Positions 360-58,897 of a DNA stretch of 64,000 nt are shown piece after piece (the stretch's first letter is position 1; every line of letters begins with the position of its first letter). Made by a program: the position numbers and the translations under genes. Below the pieces are notes generated by a model that worked only from the letters and a program-made list of their open reading frames with translations, was not told where the DNA came from and did not search any database. The DNA comes from Saprospiraceae bacterium. Lineage in GTDB: Bacteria; Bacteroidota; Bacteroidia; Chitinophagales; Saprospiraceae. The stretch spans positions 1 through 64,000 of the forward strand of contig JALHQW010000011.1 in assembly GCA_022841745.1 (NCBI GenBank), read 5' to 3'.

Positions 360-1790
360 TTGTCAACCTTGTTTGCTTTCCTCGACAAATCCCACTCCCT
401 TGCGCCACCCGGCTACAATCGCTGGTTGGTGCCTCCGGCAGCCCTCAGCATCCACCTCTGCATTGGGCAGATATACGCTTACAGCGTGTTCAACCAGCCA
501 CTGACGCAACTCATCGGCATCAGGGAACCCGCCGAGGGCGACTGGACGCTGGTGCAGGTCGGTTTTATTTTCAGCATCGCCCTGTTTTGCCTTGGCGCAT
601 CGGCGGCGGTCTTCGGCAAGTGGCTGGAGCGGGTCGGGCCCAGGCGGGCCATGTTCACCTCGGCGCTTTGCTTTTCTGGCGGCTTTGTGCTTTCAGCAAT
701 GGGTGTGAAGTTCCATCAAATCTGGCTGCTCTACCTTGGCCACGGGGTGCTTGGCGGCATCGGGCTGGGGCTGGGCTATATCTCGCCCGTTTCTACACTC
801 ATAAAATGGTTCCCCGACCGCCCCGGCATGGCCACGGGCATGGCCATCATGGGCTTCGGTGGCGGCGCAATGGTCGCCTCGCCGCTCTCCATCTGGCTCA
901 TGGAACAGTTCAAATCCCCCCTGGACATAGGCGTTTGGCAGACCTTTCTCGTCATGGGCGGGCTGTACCTGTGCTTTATGCTGTTTGGGGTTTTCACCGT
1001 GAAAATCCCCCCCAGCGATTACGGAATTAGGTTCCCTTCGGGAATGACAAAGGATTACGGATTACGCTCGTCCCCCAATCCGCAATCCTTTGTCATTCCC
1101 GAAGGGAACCTAATTCCGAAATCCATTGACGCCAACACGGCCATCCGAACCCCGCAGTTTTACCTGTTGTTTTGTGTGTTGATGCTCAATGTGACGGCGG
1201 GCATAGGGGTGCTCGGCCAAGCCTCGGTGATGATACAGGAGATGTTTTCGGAGAAGGTGGTCGGGGCGAGCCGGGCGGTGTCGGCAGCGGCGGCGGGCGG
1301 GTTCGTGGGCTTGCTCAGCCTGTTCAACATGGGCGGGCGGTTCTTTTGGTCATCGTTGAGCGACCGCATTGGCCGCAAGGCCACCTATGCCATTTTCTTC
1401 CTACTGGGTGCGGCGCTCTATTTCCTCGTTCCGCTGACTGGCCAAATGGGCAGCGTGGTGAGTTTCGTGGTGGCGTTCTGCGTCATCATGAGCATGTACG
1501 GCGGCGGCTTTGCGACCATCCCGGCCTACCTTCGTGACAAGTTCGGGGTGATGGAGGTCGGTGCCATCCACGGTCGGCTGCTGCTGGCCTGGTCGGCGGC
1601 GGCGCTGCTCGGCCCCATCTTGGTGAACTACCTGCGGGAATGGCAAATCGAGGAACTGCAACTGCCCGCAGCACAGGCTTATTCGGTCACCATGTACATC
1701 ATGGCGGGGCTGCTGGTAGTCGGCTTTGTATGCAATATGCTGATTCGGCCTGTTGACCCAAAATATTACTACAAACAAGCAACACCATGA
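360..1790 (+). CDS. MFS transporter, OFA (oxalate:formate antiporter-like) family
   Basis: Inner-membrane secondary carrier of about 476 residues with twelve predicted helices, the usual length of the OFA branch of the major facilitator superfamily. Family signs are the N-terminal NRWLVPPAA block followed by HLCIGQIYAYSVF, the glycine-rich GMAIMGFGGGAMVASP stretch and the second-half SIDANTAIRTPQFYLL block. The substrate cannot be read from sequence; monocarboxylates such as oxalate, formate or lactate are the family norm. The cytoplasmic loop between helices 6 and 7 (about residues 222-253) is encoded by a near-perfect palindrome that looks like an in-frame insertion. The start was chosen because it gives a short cytoplasmic tail before helix 1. 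The stop overlaps the next small gene in ATGA. Confidence 0.9.
   Translation: MSTLFAFLDKSHSLAPPGYNRWLVPPAALSIHLCIGQIYAYSVFNQPLTQLIGIREPAEGDWTLVQVGFIFSIALFCLGASAAVFGKWLERVGPRRAMFTSALCFSGGFVLSAMGVKFHQIWLLYLGHGVLGGIGLGLGYISPVSTLIKWFPDRPGMATGMAIMGFGGGAMVASPLSIWLMEQFKSPLDIGVWQTFLVMGGLYLCFMLFGVFTVKIPPSDYGIRFPSGMTKDYGLRSSPNPQSFVIPEGNLIPKSIDANTAIRTPQFYLLFCVLMLNVTAGIGVLGQASVMIQEMFSEKVVGASRAVSAAAAGGFVGLLSLFNMGGRFFWSSLSDRIGRKATYAIFFLLGAALYFLVPLTGQMGSVVSFVVAFCVIMSMYGGGFATIPAYLRDKFGVMEVGAIHGRLLLAWSAAALLGPILVNYLREWQIEELQLPAAQAYSVTMYIMAGLLVVGFVCNMLIRPVDPKYYYKQATP
1023..1117. repeat. In-frame palindromic element inside the MFS gene
   Basis: Two 41-base arms (1023-1063 and 1077-1117) are reverse complements at 40 of 41 positions around a 13-base spacer. 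Each arm contains a smaller hairpin, TTCCCGAAGGGAA. The unit keeps the MFS reading frame and encodes about 32 extra residues in the central loop. Its TTTGTCAT + hairpin core is shared with the elements at 20979-21181 and 58799-58897. Confidence 0.85.
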
Positions 1791-4068: not shown

Positions 4069-4225
4069 CTGTTGGCTATTTGCTGTTGGCTATTGGCAGT
4101 GCCAAGTAAATTGCACTTGGCTCGCATTACATAAAGCTTTTTGATTCATTTACTCTTTGCCATTTTACACTACATTTGCACAAAGCAGTACCCAGCCAAC
4201 AGCCAAAAACAAATAGCCAATACTA
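4069..4225. repeat. GCTGTTGGCT-type degenerate repeat cluster, left of the four-helix gene
   Basis: Copies of GCTGTTGGCTNTTGGC and its reverse complement AGCCAACAGCC lie at about 4069-4110 and 4190-4222. A matching cluster lies on the other side of the small gene (4579-4763). The phrase TTGGC-A-TGCCAAGT-AAATTG occurs on both sides in the same orientation. This looks like a dispersed intergenic repeat family that can fold into long imperfect hairpins. Confidence 0.7.
4171..4178 (+). promoter_or_regulatory. Possible Bacteroidota -7 box (TAnnTTTG)
   Basis: TACATTTG matches the TAnnTTTG -7 consensus of the primary sigma factor in Bacteroidota. It lies about 50 bases before the original start of the four-helix gene at 4225. 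A TTTG occurs upstream at 4156 but with shorter spacing than the usual 19-21 bases, so only the -7 box is supported. Confidence 0.35.
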
Positions 4226-5625: not shown

Positions 5626-6369
5626 ATGAAAAAGCAAACCTCATTTCTGCTCGTGTTTTCCCTTTTCACCCTTGTTTTTGTCGCCTGTAAAAAGGACGAG
5701 GATTCATCCAAGCCCACCACCATCAGCGCAGCGGGCAACATCACTGCCGCAATCGCCGAGTACCGTGCCTTGGCCGCTACCGCTGGCAATGGCGTCCAGG
5801 AAATCAACTGGGACGGCGTGCCAGACGACCAAGCGGCACCCTACTTTCTCCCCTCCGACTTTTTCAATGCTACCGAAGGCAGCCGTGCCCGTGGTGCCCT
5901 GCTCACCACCGACGGCGGCGGTGTACAGGCCAGTGCCGACAGCGACAACCCAGCAGGTGCGCTGCCGCAGTTCGGCCATATCAACGCCAACTACGTCGGT
6001 GCCCTCCAGCCCTTCAGCGGCGAGCGGGTCTTCTCCCCAGTTGGGAGCAACCTGGCCGAGTTGAGCTTCTTCGTGCCCGGCACCACCACGCCCGGCGTGG
6101 TGCACGGCTTCGGGGCAGTCTATGTGGACGTTGACCGCAACGAGAACACAGCCTTCGAGTATTTCGACATCAACGGCAAGAGCCTCGGCAGCTTCGCCGT
6201 ACCAGCCAAGGACGGCGGCCACTCCTTCCTCGCCGTGCATTTCCCGACGCCCATTGTCCACAAAGTCCGTATCGAGTACGGCAGCGGCCCCCTTGGCCCC
6301 GACGAGAGCGCCACCGTGGACGTGGCCGTGATGGATGATTTTATCTATGATGTGCCGCAAGCTAAGTAA
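5626..6369 (+). CDS. Secreted lipoprotein of unknown function
   Basis: A 247-residue lipoprotein. The start at 5626 was chosen because it gives a short positive N-terminus, a hydrophobic core and a lipobox ending FVAC with Cys21; the upstream in-frame extension has no such features. The mature part contains EINWDGVPDDQAAPYF and a beta-rich C-terminal half with FGAVYVDVD and EYFDINGKSLG, reminiscent of carbohydrate-binding-like beta-sandwich folds. No catalytic motif is evident. It is followed closely by the barrel-like protein at 6454, separated by a hairpin, so the two may be related functionally. The family is known to me only as an uncharacterised exported protein type. Confidence 0.75.
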   Translation: MKKQTSFLLVFSLFTLVFVACKKDEDSSKPTTISAAGNITAAIAEYRALAATAGNGVQEINWDGVPDDQAAPYFLPSDFFNATEGSRARGALLTTDGGGVQASADSDNPAGALPQFGHINANYVGALQPFSGERVFSPVGSNLAELSFFVPGTTTPGVVHGFGAVYVDVDRNENTAFEYFDINGKSLGSFAVPAKDGGHSFLAVHFPTPIVHKVRIEYGSGPLGPDESATVDVAVMDDFIYDVPQAK

Positions 6370-6439
6370 GGATTGAAGGAAAGAAGGATTGAAGGCTTCC
6401 GAGGCCCTGCTCCTTCAATCCTTCAACCCTTCAATCCTT
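6368..6439. repeat. Imperfect palindrome between two export genes
   Basis: Arms AAGGATTGAAGG-n3-GAAGGATTGAAGG (6368-6395) and its complement (6412-6439) match at 25 of 28 positions around a 16-base loop. There is no clear U tract, so it may be an RNA hairpin or another intergenic palindrome rather than a simple terminator. Confidence 0.65.
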
Positions 6440-6453
6440 TTATCCATTGTCAA

Positions 6454-7578
6454 ATGAAAAACTCATCCCGTTTCCTCGTCTTGTTCCTGTTTGTTGCCCT
6501 CCGGGCAATGGGGCAGGAAGCCACTACACAGCTTGCGAAAGCAACCGAATTCACGATTCCCGTATCGCCCGCCTTCGACCTGCTGGCGGTCAGCCCGTCG
6601 CAGATAACCCGACCCAGCAATATCCGGGAGTTCAAGGTGGACTGGTCATTCCGCTCCTGGCGGCTGAAACCGAATATTGCCATACAGGCCCAGCCCATCT
6701 GGGAACTGGCCTACAACCGGCCCGACCTTGGGAAGTACCGCCGTGCTTCCAAGTTGATGAAGACCCTGAGCACCCTCGACCTCTCGGCGGGCACCATCGA
6801 GGATGCCGACCAGAGCCGCCGGGCCTCGCTGGCTGCCAAGCTGAACTTGTTTCGACAATACGACCCGCTGGAAGAGGCTGGCCTGTTCGCCAAAATGGAC
6901 AGCATCTATCGCAAGCGGCAGGACGCTACCTTGGTGAACATGGCAATGGTCCGACTGAAAAGGGAAGCCACTACCGACAAACAGGCATTGGCCCGTTACG
7001 ACAACAGCCTCGACTCGTTGCAGGGAATCTATGACAGGGAGGCCTCCATGCAGAAGGAGCGTATCCAACAGGTTGCGCAGCAATACATCCTCGACCACTG
7101 GAACGCCGCTCACCTCGACATCGCCTGCGGCAAACTCTACTCCTACGAAAACGCAGCACTGGACAGCCTGAACCTGCGGGCCGCTGGCGCCGCTGTATGG
7201 GTGAACGGCAGCCTGCCCGTTGGCAAGCGGCTCATGCTCAACGGCACGGTGAGGTTCATGAAACAGGTGGCGCAGGACTCGTTTTCTACCCGAATCAACA
7301 CTACCTCCGGCGGCATCGGCATGCGCTATGGCAGCCCGAAGTTCACCTTCTTCGTGGAGTTCGTCTTCTCGAAATTCAAATCGGAGAACAGCATCTCCTT
7401 CGATGAAATGCCGGAACTGAACATGGCCCAACTGAACAATTTTTCGACCTCCTACGGCGGCGACTGGCGCATCAATCGCAACGTGCTGCTGAGCTACGGC
7501 GTCAGGCTCGACCACTCAGACGGGTACAAAGTGAAGAACATCATCCCCGTGGCGGGGGTGTCGTGCATGATGCGGTAA
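6454..7578 (+). CDS. Probable outer-membrane barrel-like protein, unknown function
   Basis: A 374-residue exported protein. The start at 6454 (MKNSSRFLVLFLFVALRAMG) gives a signal peptide with cleavage near AMG-QE; the longer in-frame start runs through the upstream hairpin and was rejected. The middle part (about 100-230) is charged and helical, with segments such as LKREATTDKQALARY. The C-terminal part has alternating strands (NGTVRFMKQ, GGIGMRYGSPKFTFFVEF, VLLSYGVRLDHS) like the wall of an outer-membrane barrel. The ending in VAGVSCMMR is not the usual terminal aromatic. Function is unknown. Confidence 0.65.
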   Translation: MKNSSRFLVLFLFVALRAMGQEATTQLAKATEFTIPVSPAFDLLAVSPSQITRPSNIREFKVDWSFRSWRLKPNIAIQAQPIWELAYNRPDLGKYRRASKLMKTLSTLDLSAGTIEDADQSRRASLAAKLNLFRQYDPLEEAGLFAKMDSIYRKRQDATLVNMAMVRLKREATTDKQALARYDNSLDSLQGIYDREASMQKERIQQVAQQYILDHWNAAHLDIACGKLYSYENAALDSLNLRAAGAAVWVNGSLPVGKRLMLNGTVRFMKQVAQDSFSTRINTTSGGIGMRYGSPKFTFFVEFVFSKFKSENSISFDEMPELNMAQLNNFSTSYGGDWRINRNVLLSYGVRLDHSDGYKVKNIIPVAGVSCMMR

Positions 7579-7580
7579 TC

Positions 7581-7641
7581 GTGATTGGTGATTCGTGACT
7601 CGGCGCACCTACGAACTTCCTAATCACGAATCACGAATCAC
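7581..7641. terminator. Inverted repeat after the barrel-like gene, possible terminator
   Basis: GTGATTGGTGATTCGTGA (7581-7598) pairs with TAATCACGAATCACGAATCAC (7621-7641) with few mismatches. It begins two bases after the upstream stop codon and lies in front of the next transcription unit. No long T run follows, so the terminator role is inferred from position. Confidence 0.5.
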
Positions 7642-7679
7642 TACAAACTCATTTTCAATCACTCAAAATTTTTAATCAA

Positions 7680-20932: not shown

Positions 20933-20978
20933 AAAAAGTATAGTTTGAAATTTTCGAAAGGAATTTAGGGGTAATTTC

Positions 20979-21181
20979 AAGCTTAATGTCGTCAACTTAA
21001 GCATTTTTTGTCATTGCCGAAGGCAATCCCGAGAAATCGGGACAAGCGCTGCAACGTCAAGTGTGCTGTCCATAAGTGACTTCCCGTATGACGTCGCAGC
21101 GCTTGTCCCGATTTCTCGGGATTGCCTTCAGCAATGACAAAGGGACGTGAACCGTTAAGTTGACGACATTAAACTTCAAGC
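20979..21181. repeat. Large nested palindromic element in front of the S41 peptidase gene
   Basis: Outer arms (AAGCTTAATGTCGTCAACTTAA near 20979 and its complement near 21154) surround inner arms of about 53 bases (21007-21059 and 21089-21141) that are almost perfectly complementary. Each inner arm carries further hairpins, TTGCCGAAGGCAA and CCCGAGAAATCGGG. The left edge lies about 47 bases from the start codon at 20932. It has no ORF and no recognisable transposase ends. Confidence 0.85.
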
Positions 21182-21207
21182 TACCCGCAAATTAAGCATT
21201 ATGAGGT

Positions 21208-33644: not shown

Positions 33645-33712
33645 TTCGAGAGGCCGGGTTATCAAACCCGGCGGTTCCGGAACTGCCGGGTTTGATAACC
33701 CGGCCTCTCGAA
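33645..33712. repeat. Perfect 28-bp-arm palindrome between genes
   Basis: Arms 33645-33672 and 33685-33712 are exact reverse complements around the palindromic loop GGTTCCGGAACT. Each arm folds on itself as CCGGGTTATCAAACCCGG. It sits alone in a gap of about 500 bases (33449-33946) that otherwise holds no recognisable gene. Confidence 0.85.
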
Positions 33713-36963: not shown

Positions 36964-39900
36964 GTGCGCCACCCTGCCCTCACACTGTTGCTGTTTGCGT
37001 TTGCGTTAAAATTACCAGCGCAGACCCAGCGCCTGCTTTTCGAGCATTTCAGCTATGCCCAAGGCATGCCAGTTGGCTCCATCAACTGCCTGCTGGAAGA
37101 CCGGGATGGTTTCATTTGGGTCGGCGGTACAAGGGGGTTGGCCCGCTTCGATGGTCACCGCTTCGAGCCGTATTTTTACCAACCAAACGACTCGTGCAGC
37201 CTTTCAACAAAAAACGTCAACGCCCTTCTGCAAGACCCCACGGGGCGTATCTGGGTCGGTACCTCCAACGGCCTGAACCGCCTGGGCTCCCTTCGGAAAT
37301 GTTTCGATAAAATCCCTTTTCCTTCGGAAATTACCTTGCCCGCCGACCGCCAGGTAAACGCCGTTTTTCTATCAAAAAAAAGCGAAATATGGGTCGGTGC
37401 CTCAAGCGGGCTTTATGTTTATGATGAAAAAAACGACCGCCTCGACCGCTCGATGGGCAGTTTCGAGGGAGGGGTACAAACCCTCTGCGAAGACCATCGT
37501 GGGAGGGTTTGGCTTGCCAGCGACTGCGGCCTCTATTACCTCGACGAACAGCAAAAGCCCGTCTTTGCTGGCGAACTGCCCAAGGTGCCGGGCATGCGGC
37601 CCTCCAATGTCAAAGACTTGTTCGAAGATAGCCAAAACCGCCTCTGGGCCGGCACCGAAAACGGGCTTTTCCGTTGGGACGAAGCCATTGGCCAAGCCCC
37701 AAAGGGGCAAGCCGTGCAACCCGCTGATTTGCCTTCCATTTTGCACCATGCCTGGGTCTGGGACATCGCCGAAAGCGACGGCTACCTTTGGGTTGCCACC
37801 CGCAACGAGGGTTTGGTAAAATGGCGGCCCGGCGGTGCCTGGCAGCAGTACAACAAAGATGCGCTCGACCCATTTTCCCCTGCCGATGTCCACCATAGGG
37901 CAGTGCTGCTCGACCGCTCAGGGGCACTCTGGCTCGGCACCTTCTCTGGCTTGGACAAGACCCGTTTTACCCGAACCCATTTCCCCTTTTTCTACATCGA
38001 ACCGGGCGATGGGCAGAACACCAGCTTTGTGATGAAAATGACCGCCGACCAGCAGGGCGGCACTTGGGCGTACATCAGGGGGCGGGGGCTTTACCACGCC
38101 AAAGGTTTGGGGCAAAAGGCGTTAAAGACCAGTTTTCCATTAGATGGCTTCCTCGACGGCAAGGACCACAAGGGCATCTGCCCCGACAGCGACGGCGGCA
38201 TCTGGATAGGCCGCAACTTCGATGGGCTGTATCGTGCCACTCCCGCCGATGGCACCGTCCGGCCATTTCCCGCAGGGGATACCCTTGCCATTTCCCATCA
38301 ACGAAATATCCGGGAAGACGCCACCGACTCCCGCTACCTTTGGATCGCCACCGTGAAGGGGCTTTGCCGCCTCGACAAAGGAACCCGGAAGCGCCGCTGG
38401 TTTTACCCACAAACTGACCTGCCCGACTTGCCCGACAACGCCATGAACTTTCTGGACCAATCGCCCGACGGCTCGGTTTGGTTTTCGTTTGGCTATCCTC
38501 AAACCGTTGGCATCGGGCGTTTCGACCCCAAAACCGGGAAGTTTTCAAAGTTGGAAGGCGAACTGCCCGTGCTCGACCTGAACCAAATACGGGCGGATGG
38601 TGGGCAAGTATGGTTCATTTTTGAACAGCAAATCAGCCGGTACGGCATCGCTTCCGGCAGCTTATCCCATTTTTTTCCCTTCCGGGAAATGGGCGGGACA
38701 ACATTGGCAAGCGCCCAGCCCGATGGGACGGGTAGGCTGTGGTTCGCTGGCGGGAGGTACATCGGCTGCCTCGACCCCGCCGACGGCTCGTACCGCTACT
38801 TCCACCAGCCGGAGATGGAAATTTTCATCGGGGGCAGCTTCGGGAAATTGCCCGACGGCAGTTTGGTTTTTGGTGGGAAAAACGGGTTCTGCGCTTTCCA
38901 ACCAGCCAAGGTTGCCCCCATGCCAGCGCCCCCCCGCCCGCTACTGACCTCGGTTTTGGTCAACAACCAACCCGCCCCATTGCCTACAACACCGGAAGCG
39001 CTAACCTCACTCACGCTCCCCTTCGCCGACAACACGTTCTCCTTCGGCTTCGTCTCGCTCCAACTGCTCGCACCTGCCAACCTCCGCTATGCCTACCGCC
39101 TCGTTGGTTTTGAAAATGATTGGCAAATGGCAACACAGGGGCAGCGGGCATTTTACACCAAAGTGCCGCCGGGCCACTACACTTTCAGGGTGAGGGCAGC
39201 CAGTCCCGACGGGGTTTGGGGCACGGAGGAACTGGCGCTGCCCGTGCGCATCCTGCCGCCTTGGTGGCAGACCTGGTGGTTCAGGACGATGGGCCTGATT
39301 GCCTTGGCGGCGGCGGTATTCGCTTTTTACCAATACAAACTGCGGCGGCGATTGGAGCAGGAAGAGACCCGGCGCCTGAAAGAACTCGACGCCTTCAAGA
39401 CCCGCCTCTACACGAACATCACGCACGAGTTCCGCACCCCGCTCACGCTCATCGTCAGCCCGGCAGCCCGCCTCCAACGGGAACTGGAACTCGCCGACCT
39501 GCCCGGCGCTGCCGAGGAACTGGCCCGCATGAACCGCCAGGGCGAGCACCTGCTCCGCCTCGTTGGGCAGATACTCGACCTGAACAAGTTGCAGGCAGGC
39601 AAAATGACCGTCAACTGGGTACAGGGCGACGTGGTGGCCTTCCTATCCTACGTGGCCGACTGCTTTCGTTCCTATGCCTCTTCGAAGAAAATTGATCTCC
39701 GCTTCGAGCCATTCGTGCCTCAGTTCATCATGGACTACGACCCCGAAAAATGGCTCGCCATCACCTCCAACCTGTTGTCGAATGCGCTGAAGTTTACGCC
39801 GGAAGGAGGAACTATTGGTTTACGATGGACGGTGGACGATGGACGGCAAACGGAGCATGGGGGAACGCTGTCCACCGTCCACCGTCCATCGTTAGCCGTT

Positions 39901-46158: not shown

Positions 46159-46255
46159 GTTTTGGGCATGGCCAAACGTACACCGAAACCCCAGTTTCGG
46201 AGTGATTACGCCGGAACTGGGGTTCCGGCATACATTGGGGGCCCATGCCCAAAAC
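46159..46255. repeat. Palindromic element after the G8 gene
   Basis: Outer arms GTTTTGGGCATGG (from 46159) and its complement (to 46255) enclose two nested hairpins, CCGAAAC-n4-GTTTCGG and CCGGAAC-n4-GTTCCGG. These share loop and layout but differ by one compensated base pair. It could also act as a terminator for the gene ending at 46111. Confidence 0.75.
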
Positions 46256-58798: not shown

Positions 58799-58897
58799 CT
58801 AAGTCGCTTTTGTCATGGCCGTAGGCCACCTCTGCGTTATAAGTGATTGCACTTCGAGACGCAGAGGTGGCCTTCGTCCATGACAAAAGCGACTTAG
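58799..58897. repeat. Nested palindromic element of the TTTGTCAT family
   Basis: Arms 58799-58836 and 58860-58897 are complementary at 36 of 38 positions around a 23-base spacer. Each contains a smaller hairpin, TGGCCGTAGGCCA on the left. It shares the TTTGTCAT start and the CCG-AGG-type hairpin with the elements at 1023 and 20979. Confidence 0.85.

Follow-up and report, generated by a model that had tools for sequence, protein, structure and literature searches.

The inverted repeat at positions 58799 to 58897 of the window, the whole 64,000-nucleotide stretch of Saprospiraceae bacterium DNA analysed here (assembly GCA_022841745.1, contig JALHQW010000011.1), belongs with two other window palindromes to one large family of hairpin-forming repeats. 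With a probability of about 0.6, we regard this family as selfish, non-autonomous REP-like DNA, whose covariation would arise from hairpin folding combined with arm-to-arm template switching. A preliminary description had proposed that the three elements are related, and this was borne out: all three are strong inverted repeats, and the core TTTGTCAT-NNCC-GNA-GGNN, with the middle loop base left free, occurs 192 times (104+88) in the 8.4 Mb genome, its reversed counterpart 0 times. The core, for which a frequency no higher than chance had been considered beforehand, is thus abundant, and the search pattern suggested at that stage, TTTGTCATNNCCGWAGGNN, gave 80+79 matches in the host's own genome and 0 when reversed. 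No function for the host is indicated.

The window elements and the hairpin unit

The features of the window are given below by position, strand and description.

360 to 1790, plus strand: MFS transporter ORF (PF07690), which contains element 1 in frame
1017 to 1123, no strand assigned: element 1, a tail-to-tail pair with tags inward, within the MFS transporter gene
1033 to 1051, minus strand: left unit of element 1, TTTGTCAT-TCCC-GAA-GGGA
1089 to 1107, plus strand: right unit of element 1, TTTGTCAT-TCCC-GAA-GGGA
20962 to 21193, no strand assigned: element 2, a nested palindrome with outer arms at 20962-21000 and 21155-21193 (85%)
21007 to 21141, no strand assigned: inner head-to-head pair of element 2, with 53 nt arms (96%), each carrying a 22-nt insert (hairpin CCCGAGAAATCGGG)
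58799 to 58897, no strand assigned: element 3, a head-to-head pair with tags outward and outer arms CTAAGTCGCT
58809 to 58827, plus strand: unit of element 3, TTTGTCAT-GGCC-GTA-GGCC, with the 5-bp stem TGGCC/GGCCA
58869 to 58887, minus strand: partner unit of element 3, TTTGTCAT-GGAC-GAA-GGCC, whose stem has one mismatch

Element 2, like element 3, is tag-outward, and element 1 is tag-inward. The inverted repeat of element 3 has 39-nt arms of 95% complementarity separated by 21 nt and spans 79 bp from tag to tag (58809-58887); that of element 1 (1017-1123) has 47 nt arms that are 96% complementary, and two 25-bp modules lie inside its GGATT/AATCC quasi-palindrome. The placement first reported, with one element in a gene (the MFS gene), one before a gene and one between genes, agreed with the ORF list and the gene map. 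The exact stem symmetry ascribed to the three elements was retained only in part, since the right-hand hairpin of element 3 is imperfect (GGAC-GAA-GGCC) and two of the three exact symmetry claims made for this element therefore hold approximately. Folded as single-stranded DNA, the whole elements 1-3 gave z-scores of -15.3 to -16.6, equalled by 0 of 200 shuffles; the small hairpin of one unit alone was ordinary under the DNA energy model (z -2.0 and -0.9, equalled by 10 and 32 of 200 shuffles). The outer arms, initially described as otherwise unrelated in all three copies, proved to have counterparts: many copies, including element 3, have GTCGCT before the tag, and L087:4637-4803 has outer arms partly in common with those of element 2 (69% over 210 bp), the outermost arms differing between both copies. 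Element 3 had no long flank in common with the other fetched copies, except for a 34-bp match in the relative G008.

The unit is about 25 bp long and comprises the unpaired tag TTTGTCA, a 5-bp stem and a GNA triloop; within the stem, the two inner C-G pairs are best conserved, and it is the next two that vary. Covariation was assessed in 81 sites chosen only by TTTGTCAT..CC...GG.., which left two stem pairs and the loop free, and units were read over 1.43 Mb of the genome, consisting of the window and 70 fetched stretches, some of them picked for holding copies. Both free stem pairs were complementary in 78 of the 81 units; re-dealing the right sides in 2,000 shuffles gave 30.7 on average and never more than 44. 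Distinct units alone gave 68/71 (5,000 shuffles: mean 25.8, maximum 39). These statistics confirmed the earlier observation that the stems change in step on both sides. The free-pair types were TG/CA in 44 units, TC/GA in 17, CG/CG in 11, GG/CC in 4, TA/TA in 1 and CC/GG in 1, with 3 non-complementary. The last T of the tag pairs with A in 78/78 units, but the next A-T pair is formed in only 8/78, so the stem is counted as 5 bp; the bases following the stem's A were ACTG in 30/78 and CCT plus a base in 29/78. Loops were GAA (44), GTA (21), GCA (7), ATA (6), AAA (2) and GAT (1), that is, GNA in 72/81 and non-GNA in 9/81.

Other hairpins also follow TTTGTCAT, for example CTTGAAAAG, CCCTTTAGGG and CCCGAGCCATCGGG. 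Over the first 1.25 Mb, 75 of the 141 occurrences of the word (53%) had an exact stem of 4 bp or more beginning no further than 2 nt after it, compared with 0 to 14 sites (0 to 22%) for 12 anagram words, and hairpin variants, imperfect units and plain coding sequence were among the remaining 66. According to PMC4686876, DNA mini-hairpins are unusually stable when a GNA or GNNA loop is closed by two or more G-C pairs, and PMC6479982 cites an advantage of 6 degrees for GAA over GTA. The constant part of the family matches this DNA mini-hairpin motif, which would favour folding as DNA rather than as RNA. Covariation alone is no proof of a selected function, because arm-to-arm copying would yield it too; covariation in a repeat family should thus not by itself be taken as proof of a selected RNA, the signal from such copying being identical.

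Pairs, arrays and a MITE-borne subset

Units occur as inverted pairs with a modal length of 80 bp, in tandem runs or singly. Neighbouring units no more than 200 bp apart were arranged head-to-head in 16 cases, tail-to-tail in 2 and head-to-tail in 23, many of the last coming from tandem arrays such as L084:8175-8820, which holds 12 core units at a spacing of 57 bp or multiples of it. The same stem stood on both sides in 13 of the 16 head-to-head pairs (shuffle mean 6.5; reached in 2 of 5,000). A set of 30 dimers defined by the tag only, 6 of them from the relative G008, included 12 of exactly 80 bp and 15 of 78-80 bp, and their inner arms were more alike within dimers (identity 0.79) than between them (0.66). 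Exclusion of the 7 dimers with a left arm starting CGCC left this difference in place (0.78 vs 0.63; 0 of 10,000 permutations as high), and the 14 nt outside the tags showed hardly any pair effect (0.51 within vs 0.48 between pairs). The earlier view that the family keeps its architecture while its sequence changes therefore stands where the hairpin and a pair's inner arms are concerned and is not supported for the 14 nt beyond the tags. Both arms of element 2 carry the 22-nt CCCGAGAAATCGGG insert, whereas the dimer L052:1490-1602 has it in a single arm; counting close variants, the insert is present at 7 genomic places, two of which belong to element 2. This difference would fit arm-to-arm copying, and recombination in the opposite direction might also have produced it.

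The CGCC dimers sit within a 174-bp MITE with ends AAGGGCTTTCTTATAAAAA (19-bp ends, 10-bp target duplications), which contains no transposase gene. In 7 of the 12 two-ended MITE copies the flanking 10-mers agreed at no fewer than 8 of 10 positions, and the other 5 were without good target duplications; the extremes were two copies with 10/10 and a worst copy with 2/10. Over all copies the flanks matched at 89/120 positions, a value that 0 of 10,000 permutations reached (maximum 71). Three of the 12 two-ended copies had no core match. No autonomous partner was found, as inspection by eye of the initial 160 residues in each of the three longest frames revealed no transposase at any of 10 loci with end-like sites, comprising 8 without a partner end together with L319 and L322, both of which belong to MITE copies. 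A fetched locus was available for 30 of the 43 MITE-end-like matches, and 13 weak ones had 3 mismatches. Terminal inverted repeats with a target duplication were not seen for elements 1 and 3, and carriage by the MITE accounts only for the CGCC subset.

Unit-less sites, genomic location and relatives

Whether a unit is present varies among relatives and also between paralogues; flank alignments covered four sites, one of which (L052/L265) was too diverged to score, and an HsdR gene. In G008 and G013, the MFS gene corresponding to that of element 1 has a GGATT/AATCC quasi-palindrome there and the two 25-bp modules are absent, and two intergenic sites are likewise unit-less (L081 compared with L360 of G008; L253 compared with L259 of G008). 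The opposite direction was also found, a gene that we take from its motifs to be P-type-ATPase-like having a unit in G008 that is absent in G000. An RNase H gene (PF01693 and PF00075) with a unit in its linker has a homologue in 12 of the 13 other genomes of the genus, and the unit was seen in 0 of these 12; AATCCGC-type arrays are present in the linker in G011, G006 and G004, and G006 also has another hairpin.

The type I restriction subunit (HsdR) gene on C17 (ResIII, EcoEI_R_C, HSDR_N) has a paralogue on C1 of the same genome, and whole-gene alignment of the two showed that the C17 copy has, besides a cluster of units, three single units apart from it; its reading frame stays open. One single unit, ATTGTCATTCCC-GGA-GGGAAT, occupies the position of a 23-bp tract of C1 with 13 of 23 columns differing and no indel, and the 15 and 37 neighbouring bases shown are identical; the two other single units swap about 24 for 33 and 25 for 28 bp. 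A clean transposition event would add DNA and leave the target intact, and the replacement seen instead points to some form of copying; alternatively, a unit may have been inserted and the length then adjusted by deletions, with selection acting to keep the frame. The cluster sits in place of the KTIVFC stretch of the paralogue, so the C17 copy may be inactive. HsdR genes collect several kinds of short repeat (L042 12500-15200 on C17; L088 6641-9400 on C1; L367 in G008), and the G008 stretch, where a unit pair is located, seems to be without the middle of the gene.

A gene map made with a home-made ORF caller (coding fraction 0.84) placed 20 of 39 loci between codirectional genes, 4 in convergent and 3 in divergent gaps, 9 inside genes and 3 at edges; all gaps of at least 30 bp numbered 526 codirectional, 121 convergent and 166 divergent. 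Two of the nine inside-gene loci are doubtful (L084 and L101) and two lie near a called gene start (L079 and L106). Loci with TCCC/CCCC units were inside genes in 7/15 cases, compared with 2/24 for the others, both of these being the doubtful ones (Fisher P 0.015). More than one frame is open in the units, and the peptides encoded include FVIPKGN and LSFPKGT. What looks from its proteins like an ilv operon (L058 1-7137, C35) has repeats in successive gaps, with family units in two of them and an antisense RAYT-like gene in a third.

Between 1 and 29 core matches were present in 9 of the 13 other same-genus genomes, and one core match in 1 of 26 further relatives. A phylum set of 395 genomes, the host's own included, yielded 12 others with 1-2 core matches and 6 with a match to the reversed control, which places the rest of the phylum near background for the exact core, a search that other stems or tags would escape. 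A scan of named genomes with a 14-base pattern gave matches that, as listed, lay mostly at chance expectation and served as leads; five genomes were reached via named loci, and of these five Saprospiraceae bacterium Prado044 had 11 core matches and Saprospiraceae MAG_35 had 5. On our preferred reading, the family was amplified in the host species and is much rarer or absent in relatives. A narrow literature search found no paper on such repeats in Saprospiraceae.

Known repeat systems and competing explanations

REPINs of RAYT systems, as Bertels and Rainey are said to have described them in 2011, are two inverted REPs that form a unit of fixed length, with many copies and a small spacer. The present family likewise has two inverted units at fixed length, in many copies and with a small spacer, but differs from REP/REPIN-RAYT systems in its tag, TTTGTCA rather than a GTAG-like one, and in that no Y1 gene of this genome has a unit within 965 bp.

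The closest known kind is the CGTC/TGTC-tagged REPs. In the survey by Di Nocera et al. (2013; PMC3733652), these have the tag CGTC, often TGTC, stems of 8-9 bp starting AT, loops of 4-5 nt and a short unpaired tail, mostly CCA; they form head-to-head dimers, include intragenic copies and show no association with transposases, and the multiplication of such transposase-less REPs is left unanswered there. Measured against that account, our family shares TGTC just before the stem in TTTGTCAT, a likeness given by construction because sites were selected on TTTGTCAT, as well as a small hairpin, pairing in head-to-head order, subsets that differ in their stems, intragenic copies, the nesting of pairs in longer palindromes recorded for some species, and the lack of association with a transposase gene (none of the 9 Y1 matches has a core closer than 965 bp). 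It departs from the same account in its stem of 5 bp instead of 8-9 bp, the second A-T pair being almost never formed, in its GNA loop of 3 nt instead of 4-5 nt, and in having tandem arrays, a MITE-borne subset with target duplications, and replaced host sequence. The tail, mostly CCA there, is mostly ACTG or CCT plus a base here, and beside the predominance of head-to-head pairs described there stand our 16 head-to-head, 2 tail-to-tail and, largely from arrays, 23 head-to-tail neighbours. Thus the tag, the lack of a transposase and in part the dimers are those of the CGTC REPs, whereas stem length, GNA triloop, MITE subset and replacement set the family apart; since stem length and loop differ, we do not file it as a CGTC REP, though it works like one. 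Rickettsia palindromic elements, in the description given in PMC3733652, are likewise short palindromes in coding genes with the frame kept, but have other sequences, and the HsdR gene here shows replacement, not plain insertion. For RNA genes, PMC8794818 describes how template switching can both generate hairpins and repair them; it predicts perfect stems and both sides changed in one event, features like those of our units, which form a dispersed bacterial repeat instead.

In our preferred explanation, the unit would act as folded single-stranded DNA, because stable DNA mini-hairpins have this same loop. Quasipalindrome template-switch mutation is reportedly on record for E. coli. New copies would be partly carried by the MITE and partly copied into or over existing sequence, the arms would be kept alike by arm-to-arm template switching, and this switching together with hairpin folding would produce the covariation. 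This explanation combines the account of the CGTC REPs with the template-switch literature, and the step that makes new copies is a proposal within it. Arm likeness would also result if ready-made palindromes spread and then decayed, which counts against template switching, and further observations weigh against the explanation, namely the ordinary single-unit hairpin, the hardly pair-specific 14 nt outside the tags, the 9/81 loops other than GNA, and the restriction of the MITE to the CGCC subset, with 5 of its 12 copies short of good target duplications and no autonomous partner found. The spread of transposase-less REPs becomes testable in this genome, given its roughly 190 core copies, the unit-less sites that a paralogue and relatives provide, and a loop suggestive of DNA rather than RNA folding.

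A tentative possibility is that the units spread without a dedicated transposase, folded single-stranded patches overwriting tracts of about their own length and the same process copying arm onto arm; the overwriting might proceed by template switching or annealing at replication forks, and the direct hint of it is the HsdR pair, where the 23-bp tract appears replaced with neither gain nor loss. Movement in trans as a REPIN-type element by a RAYT, encoded by a Y1 gene of the genome or by one since lost, was our first hypothesis and now appears unlikely. The family looks like REPINs in that its inverted pairs are of fixed length, its units form tandem arrays and its hairpins carry an unpaired tag, and the genome has 9 Y1_Tnp matches, several of them RAYT-like (four RAYT-like proteins fell two above and two below the NCBIfam REP_Tyr_transpos cut-off). 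The best point in its favour is TTTCAT-CCCGACCACAGGTCGGGA just outside the C48 RAYT-like gene (L250:9319), one of several other repeats neighbouring that gene, which resembles the family variant TTTGTCAT-CTCGACCATAGGTCGAG at L042:7251. The hypothesis lost weight through the other palindromes that flank the RAYT-like genes on C35, C24 and C92 (CCGGGTTTGATAACCCGG, the ACCGGAACCCCAGTTCCGGT type and GGTTCAAGTCTCCTGACTTGAACC, respectively) and through the distance of at least 965 bp between the nearest unit core and any of the 9 Y1 matches; furthermore, 0 of 29 Y1 loci of relatives (L108-L136; about 1.5 kb per side where the contig allows) had TTTGTCAT followed by a hairpin, and Y1 and unit numbers are uncoupled in the genus (8 Y1 and 0 cores in G009, 0 Y1 and 8 cores in G002). 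That all units are remains of DDE-transposon MITEs, with the hairpin as mere cargo in the middle, is distinctly doubtful. The 174-bp element around the CGCC pairs with its ends and target duplications, and the outer arms that element 2 has in common with L087:4637-4803, speak for such an origin, but MITE ends occur in the CGCC type only among the 30 tag-defined dimers, the 80-bp pair has other flanks in G008 and elsewhere, single units and arrays are without such ends, and element 3 is without a long shared flank save the 34-bp match in G008.

A transcribed RNA element kept by selection, such as a terminator, an attenuator or an mRNA stabiliser, would account for stable folds, covariation and the 27/39 loci between genes. 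We consider it very improbable, given that convergent gaps show no excess (4/27 vs 121/813 gaps), that element 3 has no terminator-like site, that Rfam 15 gave 0 matches in the window at gathering score, that 9/39 loci were called inside genes and that GNA is the loop of DNA mini-hairpins; the location counts, the Rfam result and the missing terminator-like site gave no support to a terminator or RNA role. Chance inverted repeats that share a word would be compatible with the weak enrichment of TTTGTCAT alone within the window (7 vs a mean of 2.97), for which reason the case depends on the full core; the 192 core copies against 0 reversed had already refuted this reading, and with covariation beyond every shuffle its likelihood is practically nil.

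Several other palindromes were noted alongside the family. The REP-like palindrome CCGGGTTTGATAACCCGG occurs as an inverted pair at 33645-33712 of the window and on both sides of the C35 RAYT-like gene (L058 2660-3770), with which it probably forms a true REP-RAYT system. The ACCGGAACCCCAGTTCCGGT / CCGAAACTGGGGTTTCGG palindrome flanks the C24 RAYT-like gene (L252 9024-10506), with a downstream tandem array of about 78 bp period, and a relative of this type lies in the window at 46172-46239. On C92 (L249 2000-8600), two near-identical RAYT-like gene copies stand 2,237 bp apart among many GGTTCAAGTCTCCTGACTTGAACC palindromes. Near position 1274 of L277, a G011 locus fetched for a homologue of the gene beside element 3, lies another strong palindrome of different sequence, GGTGCAGCGCACCG...CGGTGCGCTGCACC. 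Inverted repeats formed by degenerate arrays are common in the window (7570-7652, 39817-39897, 4072-4220 and 6368-6439) and are built of words of about 7-8 bp such as AATCACG, GGACGGT, TTGGCTG and GGATTGAA; arrays of such words fill gene linkers of relatives where the Saprospiraceae host has a hairpin unit, and AATCCGCAATCC occurred 43 times in 1.43 Mb.
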